Both the position numbers and the translations under genes were made by a program. This document shows, piece by piece, positions 51,645 to 54,110 of a stretch of 64,000 nt of DNA. The notes below the pieces were generated by a model. That model did no database searches. It was given only the letters and a program-made list of their open reading frames with translations, and had not been told where the DNA came from. Source of the DNA: Lysobacter lycopersici (lineage in GTDB: Bacteria > Pseudomonadota > Gammaproteobacteria > Xanthomonadales > Xanthomonadaceae); the NCBI RefSeq assembly GCF_007556775.1, contig NZ_CP041742.1, positions 1,355,002 through 1,419,001 of the forward strand. Direction: 5' to 3'. Position 1 is the first letter of the stretch; every line of letters begins with the position of its first letter.

Positions 51645-52099
51645 TTGCGCGCCCCCATCCAGCGCAGGAAGCGATCGCGCACGATTTCGCGCAGGCCTTC
51701 GATTTCCGTTTCGCCGACATCGCGGCGGAAACCGCCATCGCGCAGCAGCGCGCCGGCACCGGCGACGAACACCGGTTGCGGCAGGCCGCGATCGAGGAAG
51801 CGCAACCATTCCTCGCCTTCGAACCGATCTGCGTCCGGATCGATGCGGCGCGAGGCGCGGCGCAGTTGTTCCGACATCGCCGCGATCTTCGCGGCCGGGG
51901 TTTCGGCCGCTGAAACCGCATCGTCGAACAGGCGCGCGATGGCGGCGCGCCGCAACTTTTGTCGACGCCGCCACCACGCCCATGCGGCGAACGCGAGCAA
52001 CAACGCCGCGAACAGCATCCACCAGCCCGGTGCCGGCGGCCACCACGACGGCGGCGGCGGCTGGTGGATGTCGCGCAGGATGAGGGTCGGATCGCTCAT
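51641..52099 (-). CDS. DUF4381-family small membrane protein
   Basis: 152 residues. LRDIHQPPPPSWWPPAPGWW leads into a single TM (WMLFAALLLAFAAWAWW, about residues 27-43), then a basic cytoplasmic domain (RRQKLRRAAI ... LRFLDRGLPQPVFVAGAGALL). This is the pattern of DUF4381, usually found between DUF58 and VWA genes in Bat operons, exactly as here. Its ATG and stop overlap both neighbours (ATGA, GTGA). Confidence 0.84.
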   Translation of the reverse strand: MSDPTLILRDIHQPPPPSWWPPAPGWWMLFAALLLAFAAWAWWRRRQKLRRAAIARLFDDAVSAAETPAAKIAAMSEQLRRASRRIDPDADRFEGEEWLRFLDRGLPQPVFVAGAGALLRDGGFRRDVGETEIEGLREIVRDRFLRWMGARK

Positions 52100-53022
52100 G
52101 CCGCGCGCGCCCCGCCCAGCAGCGAGAGCCATGAATCGCTGGGCGCATCGCCGGCGAGCAACTGCACGCGCACCCCGCGCGCCGGCAATTGCTGCAAGGC
52201 GGCTTCCACCGGCGCCATGAAGGTCCCGTGCCAGCGCTGGCGTTGCGCCGCAGTCGCGAGGTCGAGTTCGATCCGCGCATGTTTGCCGCCGTCGCCGGTC
52301 GCGAACGGCAGCGCGGCCTGCGGCGGCTGGCGTTCCAGCGCATCGACCAGCAACAACAGGATCACTTCGTTGTGCGCGGTCAGCGCAGGCCAGCGTTGCG
52401 CTGGGATCGCGGCCACGCTCGCCGGATCGGCAAGCACGACCAAGCGCGAACCCGGACGCAGCAATCGGCGCGCATGGTCGAGCGCGACCGCGAGGCCGGC
52501 ATCGTCGTCCGGCGGCTTCGCGTACCAGCGCACCAGCGCGTCGAGTACGCGCAACGCACCGCGCGGACCCGCGGCAGGAGGAACCGGCGCTTCCCTGGTC
52601 GAACCGCGCAACGCGGCGATGCGGTCGCCGTCGCGCACCGCGATCCACGCCGCGACCGCACCGGCGCGCGCGGCCTGCACCGACTTGAAGCGCGTGCGCG
52701 TGCCGAAGTACAGCGAGGGCGCGGTATCGGCGACGAGCAGGGTCAGCCGTTCGCGTTCGGCCTGGAATAATTTCGTGTGCGGCTTGCCGCTGCGCGCGGT
52801 CAGGCGCCAGTCGATGTGGCGCGCGTCGTCGCCCTGTGCGTATTCGCGCGATTCGGCGTATTCCATCCCGCGCCCGCGCATTGGCGACAATGCTTGTCCA
52901 CTGGTGCCGTGGCGCCCGCGCTTCGGCGGCCGCCGCCCCAGCGCTGCGGCGCGCAGCGCAACCAGTTCGGCCAGCGTGGGTGTAATGCCGGGGTTGGGGG
53001 CTTGGGACTGGGGTCTGTTCAA
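52096..53022 (-). CDS. DUF58-domain protein of the Bat operon
   Basis: 308 residues in the open frame. The core is conserved: GRGMEYAESREYAQGDDARHIDWRLTARSGKPHTKLFQAERE, the DUF58 signature (two Arg/Asp contacts). The only workable start is TTG 53022, as no ATG or GTG precedes the conserved part; the next ATG would remove it. The first residues (NRPQSQAPNPG) come from an adjacent inverted-repeat element (52996-53114). DUF58 and MoxR proteins act together with VWA proteins; function is unproven. Confidence 0.83.
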   Translation of the reverse strand: MNRPQSQAPNPGITPTLAELVALRAAALGRRPPKRGRHGTSGQALSPMRGRGMEYAESREYAQGDDARHIDWRLTARSGKPHTKLFQAERERLTLLVADTAPSLYFGTRTRFKSVQAARAGAVAAWIAVRDGDRIAALRGSTREAPVPPAAGPRGALRVLDALVRWYAKPPDDDAGLAVALDHARRLLRPGSRLVVLADPASVAAIPAQRWPALTAHNEVILLLLVDALERQPPQAALPFATGDGGKHARIELDLATAAQRQRWHGTFMAPVEAALQQLPARGVRVQLLAGDAPSDSWLSLLGGARAA

Positions 53023-53114
53023 AGCTCAGTATCTCCGGCGAGCATCCCCGCGCGGACAATCGCGATGCGCGCGATTCCCGATCTCCAACCCCCAGATCCT
53101 GGTCCCGAGCCCCC
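52996..53114. repeat. MITE-like inverted-repeat element between moxR and DUF58 genes
   Basis: Arms at 52996-53017 and 53093-53114 are imperfect inverted repeats: on the minus strand one reads GGGGGCTCGGGACCAGGATCTG, the other, read in its own orientation, GGGGGCTTGGGACTGGGGTCTG (18 of 22 identical). The 75-bp interior contains CGCGCGCATCGCG and CGGGAATCGCG palindromic bits. Similar G/C-rich GGGACTGGGG motifs are common in xanthomonad intergenic repeats. The element spans the start of the DUF58 coding region. Confidence 0.6.
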
Positions 53115-53117
53115 GCT

Positions 53118-54110
53118 TCACGGCAGCGGTACCTGCCGCAGCAGTTCCGCAACGAGCTTCTCACCGTCCCAGCCTTCGGCGGTCGCCTCGTAGCTCGGCA
53201 ACACGCGATGGCGCAGCACGTCGGGCGCGATGGCGCGCACGTCGTCGGGTGTGACGTAGTCGCGGCCGGCGAGCCACGCACGGGCGCGGGCGCAGCGTTC
53301 CAGCGCGATCGAACCACGCGGGCTCGCGCCCCAGGCGATGCGCTCGGCCAGTTGCTTGTCGTAGCGCGCCGGCGTGCGCGAAGCGAGCACGAGTTCGACG
53401 AGGTAGCGTTCCAGCGCGGGCGCGACATGCAGGTCGAGCACGGCCTGGCGCGCGGCGAACACATCGGCCAGCGGCATGCGCGCTGGCGTCGGGTGGGTGG
53501 TCCGCATCGCCTCACGCGCGCGTTCGCGCGCGAGGCGCAGAATTTCGGTTTCGGTTTCGGCCTCGGGATAACCGATGCGCACGTACATCAGGAAGCGGTC
53601 GAGCTGTGCCTCCGGCAACGGGAACGTGCCTTCCTGCTCGATCGGGTTCTGCGTCGCCATGACCAGGAACAACGGCGGCAACGGATAGGTATGGCGCCCG
53701 ACCGTGACCTGGCGTTCGCCCATCGCCTCGAGCAGGGCGGACTGCACCTTGGCCGGCGCGCGATTGATCTCGTCGGCGAGCAGCACGGGATGGAAGATCG
53801 GACCCGGCTGGAATTCGAAGCGGCCTTCCTGCGGCCGCCAGACCTCGGTGCCGGTCAGGTCGGCTGGCAACAGGTCGGGGGTGAACTGCACGCGGGAGAA
53901 ATCCGCCTCCAGTCGCGCCGCCAGCGCGCGGATCGCGCTGGTCTTGGCAAGGCCAGGCGCGCCTTCGACCAGCAAGTGGCCATCGGCCAGCAGCGCGATC
54001 AGCAGGCGTTCGACCAGCGCGGACTGGCCGACGATCTCGGCGGACAATCCATCGCGCAAGGCGCGGAAAGCGTCGTGCAGGCGGGAGGTTTCGGGGCTGG
54101 AACTGTCCAT
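53118..54110 (-). CDS. MoxR-family AAA+ ATPase
   Basis: 330 residues. Walker A is VEGAPGLAKTSAIRAL (GAPGLAKT), Walker B LLADEINRAPAKVQSALLEAM, sensor I MATQNPIEQEGTFPLPEAQLDRF and sensor II RTTHPT. MoxR proteins are chaperone-like ATPases that act with VWA-domain partners; here the Bat operon genes follow directly. The ATG at 54108-54110 gives a normal N-terminus. Between it and DUF58 lies the inverted-repeat element. Confidence 0.94.
   Translation of the reverse strand: MDSSSPETSRLHDAFRALRDGLSAEIVGQSALVERLLIALLADGHLLVEGAPGLAKTSAIRALAARLEADFSRVQFTPDLLPADLTGTEVWRPQEGRFEFQPGPIFHPVLLADEINRAPAKVQSALLEAMGERQVTVGRHTYPLPPLFLVMATQNPIEQEGTFPLPEAQLDRFLMYVRIGYPEAETETEILRLARERAREAMRTTHPTPARMPLADVFAARQAVLDLHVAPALERYLVELVLASRTPARYDKQLAERIAWGASPRGSIALERCARARAWLAGRDYVTPDDVRAIAPDVLRHRVLPSYEATAEGWDGEKLVAELLRQVPLP

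Follow-up and report, generated by a model that had tools for sequence, protein, structure and literature searches.

In the window, the 64-kb stretch of DNA analysed here, a gene for a DUF58 protein follows moxR and a pair of inverted repeat arms occupies the junction between the two, raising the question of what supplies the start of the DUF58 protein. The features of the junction are given below in window coordinates.

52096..53022, minus strand: DUF58 gene (PF01882), codons 3-11 consisting of heptads, conserved from Gly12 (52987-52989)
52990..53017, plus strand: DUF58-side arm, four G-rich heptads (GGGGTTG GGGGCTT GGGACTG GGGTCTG)
53018..53025, plus strand: TTCAAAGC, adjoining the heptads and containing the complement of the TTG start
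53020..53022, minus strand: TTG start, the only ATG/GTG/TTG ahead of the conserved DUF58 N-terminus
53026..53072, no strand assigned: interior between the arms, with short GC-rich genome matches only
53026..53121, minus strand: possible 31-codon leader ORF in the DUF58 frame, GTG to TGA, putatively translated
53032..53036, minus strand: GGAGA, putative ribosome-binding site in the interior, about 10 nt ahead of the TTG
53073..53114, minus strand: moxR-side arm, six partly decayed G-rich heptads, the first unit 3 nt past the moxR stop
53118..54110, minus strand: moxR AAA ATPase (PF07726), the gene upstream of DUF58

The original prediction had described two 22-bp inverted arms, identical at 18 of 22 positions, bracketing a 75-bp interior at the moxR-DUF58 junction, and the same arms were recovered at 52996-53017 and 53093-53114, 75 bp apart and with the same match. 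When the 137-bp junction was dinucleotide-shuffled 300 times, the best match was 16, and of 300 stretches of this length taken at random from the window, one reached 18; a gapped inverted-repeat score did not reach significance for the junction (p = 0.20). Both arms extend beyond the 22 bp originally described, as they are parts of 7-bp tandem arrays. At lag 7, 16 of 21 positions agree in 52990-53017, a periodicity equalled by one of 2000 shuffles and by no other stretch of the 64-kb window. The moxR-side array reads GGGGGCT CGGGACC AGGATCT GGGGGTT GGAGATC GGGAATC on the minus strand. A G-quadruplex motif is present on the plus strand of the DUF58-side arm and a G-quadruplex-like motif on the minus strand of the moxR-side arm. 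The short sequence TTCAAAGC resembles, by eye, the inner tail (approximately CGNAARAGC) common to many arms in Luteimonas. An RNA hairpin as the main product of the element was considered and rejected; although the minimum-energy fold has the arms paired, its energy is ordinary (z = -0.70). The corresponding value for single-stranded DNA was z = -1.67.

The TTG at 53022 lies beside the heptads, with an in-frame TGA two codons ahead of it, and is the sole ATG/GTG/TTG preceding the conserved GITPTLAELVALR. The following such codons in the gene (45, 48, and 53) are all located behind residues 12-23, amongst which Gly12, Pro15, Leu17, Glu19, Leu20, and Leu23 are nearly invariant across 36 DUF58 sequences. 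The claim that this TTG is the only possible start is therefore borne out for ATG/GTG/TTG up to the conserved block, with no usual start found between the two, and initiation at TTG 53022 would be expected from the sequence. Read on the minus strand, the DUF58-side arm encodes residues 3-11 (RPQSQAPNP). In an AlphaFold2 model, residues 1-10 have a mean pLDDT of 40 and residues 11-30 of about 80, a weak indication of a floppy N-terminal tail because residues 33-89 are likewise below 50. At its other end the gene conforms to the short overlaps ascribed to the rest of the operon, sharing 4 bases (ATGA, 52096-52099) with the next gene downstream.

If the element provides these residues, relatives without the arms should be expected to lack them. 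Junction loci were gathered from one search over 60 genomes, of which 52 had a match, and from another that gave the best 80 of 299 named loci, for a collection of 109 loci with the conserved motif in all except L159. Many relatives have a DUF58 protein that begins M-S/T-D/E-G, and an ATG or GTG is present at the motif or no more than 20 codons upstream of it in 100 of the 108 loci (duplicates included); two loci (L055 and L059) possess a GTG at the same overlap with the moxR stop as a possible start. A six-frame search of the 109 loci for RPQSQ, PQSQAP, and QAPNP returned the window and a lone RPQSQ 5-mer in L047, and so did not refute the original prediction. With the heptad-encoded residues missing from relatives, and with an ATG or GTG close at hand in 100 of 108 loci, it is probable that the element provides the start codon and first eleven codons of DUF58, in support of the original prediction that the gene takes its start and first codons from the element.

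Similar fusions occur in other lineages. A heptad pair is present at the junction in six loci, those of the window, Luteimonas cucumeris, L. marina, L. salinisoli, L. suaedae, and L. endophytica, and in all six the frame of the codon corresponding to Gly12 is open through the C-rich arm, which touches that codon in most (the L. cucumeris arm stops about 8 nt short). The N-terminal peptides encoded by the heptads differ (RPQSQAPNP, SNHQSPITNH, and AIPDFRTP), the open stretch in L. suaedae is 12 bases longer with the frame kept, and in L. suaedae, L. salinisoli, and L. endophytica an interior ATG could start a longer leader. The open frames of the arms are weak evidence of selection, because C-rich heptads of these versions lack a stop in any frame. 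On a quick tree of 101 rows, for which eight of the 109 loci were left out (seven identical and L159, without the motif), the presence of the pair at the junction requires at least four changes. The five rows nearest to the window by tree path (L111, L032, L092, L033, and L091) have no heptad pair at the junction, and the placement of the window has modest support (90, quick method). The comparison with empty sites is one with other genera, as the window's genome is the sole representative of its genus in the sample. A special hot spot at the moxR-DUF58 junction is not claimed, as six of 101 distinct loci and at least four changes may be due to chance given 78-168 arm matches per genome; with arm matches this dense in some Luteimonas, recurrence at the junction could be mostly a matter of chance. 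Eight further loci (L034, L035, L040, L056, L093, L099, L111, and L158) have other inverted or repeat-like sequences at their junctions. As these sequences differ amongst the relatives, the junction appears to accept several kinds of insert.

The closest known counterpart is the G-quadruplex heptad repeat (GGGAATC or GGGGA(C/T)T) of Xanthomonas and Nostoc, for which the available text of Rehm et al. 2015 (PMC4692102) gives 186 and 183 GGGAATC repeats per Xanthomonas genome, with 70 and 75 inverted pairs, using a search criterion of at least one GGGAATC heptamer. According to the same text, these repeats lie near gene ends, on the sense strand when just past a stop and on the antisense strand when ahead of an ORF, 11% and 7% of them fall at least partly inside ORFs, and dnaE is marked as a repeat-associated gene. 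The window element is like the Xanthomonas repeat, as far as that text describes it, in its 7-bp G-rich units, its four-unit preference, its convergent inverted pair and its placement at gene ends. Its arms of four and six tandem units are above the two-unit minimum for the repeat of Rehm et al., the moxR-side arm begins 3 nt after the moxR stop with the G-rich strand past the stop, and GGGAATC is present as the sixth unit of the moxR-side arm and absent from the DUF58-side arm. Unlike the Xanthomonas repeats in the available account (PMC4692102), the window arms are partly decayed, and that account does not describe arms that encode an N-terminus or in-frame inserts of different versions at one codon position. 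For the latter, a likeness exists in the Rickettsia palindromic elements, which the available part of a MITE review (PMC10969869) describes as inserted in frame into protein genes, as the heptads appear by sequence to be at the DUF58 N-terminus, in icmF, and in dnaE. The Rickettsia elements of that account are about 150 bp with a conserved peptide (PMC10969869), whereas the units here are heptads and the peptides differ. In its sequence features the window element resembles the Xanthomonas heptad repeat and appears to act like the Rickettsia in-frame palindromes.

The explanation considered quite likely is that an old copy of the Xanthomonas paired heptad repeat or of a related repeat, by now partly decayed, settled between moxR and DUF58, after which the native start was lost, the TTG came to be used, and the resulting tail was tolerated. 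The G-rich array would have come to follow the moxR stop on the sense strand and the C-rich array to run directly into Gly12, the first conserved codon. The ancestral start, which was probably either that of an M-S/T-D/E-G N-terminus or a GTG at the overlap with the moxR stop, would have been lost, removed, or bypassed. Translation would now begin at the TTG beside the arm, aided by the GGAGA in the interior and perhaps also by re-initiation after the 31-codon leader. Such a leader would permit coupled re-initiation: its first codon, a GTG, lies in a 4-base overlap (GTGA) with the end of moxR, and its TGA precedes the TTG by two codons. The extra residues encoded by the heptads would form a tail that the protein tolerates, with the pair retained because this tail is harmless. 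TTG is a weak start codon, which counts against this explanation. We infer the use of the TTG, leader translation, the order of these events, and the manner of arm spread.

The element is unlikely to be a true MITE, with terminal repeats and a transposed interior inserted together by a transposase acting in trans. The terminal inverted repeats (18 of 22) and the dispersal of arms in genomes are as such an element would have them, but there is no second full copy in the window's genome, where the 139-bp query matched itself and 34 pieces of 14-37 nt, of which the nine inspected were mostly GC-rich with no common context; the interior of the window element is thus not common to other copies. At up to three mismatches, the heptad pattern had 56 forward and 56 reverse matches in the genome, compared to 38 and 32 for a reversed control, and inspection of some of these sites revealed, by eye, other inverted heptad pairs, in favor of the heptad-repeat explanation above: beside pyrD (300392), within icmF (763692), between genes for an ABC ATPase and a permease (1566203), after atpD (1578151), and after pth (2568270). 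A search of the genome for the arms, which had been proposed as a check, therefore found dispersed heptad pairs and no full second copy.

The icmF pair (contig coordinates 763692-763882; L061 1501-1700) lies in frame within a gene for a fused isobutyryl-CoA mutase, IcmF, identified from a truncated piece and hence below the full-length cut-off of the family. Its interior (DDEIAIGRMLSAIEDG...) is native coding sequence that is also present in loci without arms, which speaks against a transposed interior at icmF. Heptads occur at the same two icmF linkers in about six of 30 loci; a count gave two or more heptads on both sides in five of them (L195, L196, L199, L201, and L224), and the sixth (L197) was recognized by eye. 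The versions include GGGACTC (L195 and L224), GGGACCG, GGGATTC, GGGAATC, and GGGAATG, and both arms within one genome share a version.

Five orthologous sites (a1-a3, b1, and b2) were compared across L. suaedae, L. salinisoli, and L. endophytica. Two of the five are empty in L. endophytica, which lacks both arms and interior there, as unit insertion would predict; at b1 each of its arms is a single heptad, and the remaining two sites have arms as well. Interiors look common to three species at b2 and to two at a3, also in favor of a MITE, but a comparison of L. suaedae with L. salinisoli suggests unrelated interiors at a1-a3, some likeness at b2, and a doubtful case at b1, and no target duplication was seen by eye at the two empty sites, one of which has diverged flanks. 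Of the MITE-like character originally proposed, the inverted arms stand; no second full copy or shared interior was found in the window's genome, no target duplication was apparent by eye at the two empty Luteimonas sites, and the icmF interior is native. REP, BIME, and REPIN elements also have short dispersed inverted arms, variable spacers and positions at gene junctions, from which the window arms differ in being tandem heptads.

It is similarly improbable that the arms arose by simple-sequence expansion, with replication slippage enlarging a short G-rich seed and template switching across a hairpin making the second arm from the first. Tandem 7-bp arrays of variable number fit slippage, as do the icmF arms, which lie on either side of native DNA and are of one version in any given genome. 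However, in 36 Luteimonas pairs, picked via at least one arm matching one query arm and hence not a random sample, the two arms of one pair resembled each other no better than arms taken from separate pairs of that genome (within pairs, 22.5; permuted, 23.3; p = 0.96; four of 40 stretches left out with a best inverted arm under 22 bp), nor does slippage explain the inner tail common to many arms. The local concerted evolution of paired arms suggested by icmF was accordingly not found in these 36 pairs (p = 0.96). Luteimonas arms follow the genome-wide heptad version, with L. suaedae possessing GGTGATT arms at all five orthologous sites and L. salinisoli mostly GGGAATC or GGGAATG arms.

Least probable is that DUF58 starts at codon 13, an ATT, or at another unusual start and that the heptads are merely 5' untranslated sequence, since, despite an ATG or GTG at the position of codon 13 in L042, L048, and L049, Gly12 just ahead of it is nearly invariant in the 36 sequences, no ribosome-binding site is visible by eye ahead of the ATT, and the arm frame in Luteimonas is open to an upstream start.

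Beyond the single junction, the settled heptad pair favored above for DUF58 may be one case of a wider pattern. Site b1 lies within a 1193-codon ORF for the DNA polymerase III subunit alpha, dnaE (NCBIfam NF004226, above cut-off), and in a survey of 33 dnaE loci, five of which were unreadable by the pattern, a pair is in frame by eye in three of 28 (L267, L312, and L313), in three versions. In L267 the pair lies at about 2336-2416, with a TCA where the coding frame of the G-rich arm would give TGA, and the dnaE of the window's own genome (L329) has no heptad pair. A plausible, though tentative, reading is that a paired heptad family of the Lysobacteraceae repeatedly inserts, in frame, at a recurring set of tolerant sites in protein genes, namely the DUF58 start, two icmF linkers, and a dnaE loop. 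Because lineages carry different heptad versions at one position, occupied sites would, within this reading, be re-occupied or rewritten over time. If so, this would be a protein-building repeat like the Rickettsia palindromic elements outside of Rickettsia, one that in icmF lies on either side of the interior instead of bringing it in. Gene ends in these bacteria may then consist in part of a dispersed repeat, such that predicted starts and N-termini there need care. The different versions at the same icmF or dnaE position would provide a natural series for working out how heptads spread and change, and a repeat tolerated in DNA polymerase III alpha would indicate which loop of an essential enzyme accepts inserts. 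Amongst the literature matches listed, none was found by title to concern in-frame heptad inserts in Lysobacteraceae genes, which is no proof of absence.

Two minor observations relate to the arrays themselves. The dnaE of L310 has, by eye, a remnant palindrome. In the window's genome, the TAG stops of pth (L002 1513-1515) and of the ABC transporter ATPase (L070 1507-1509) fall within the heptad arrays of such pairs.
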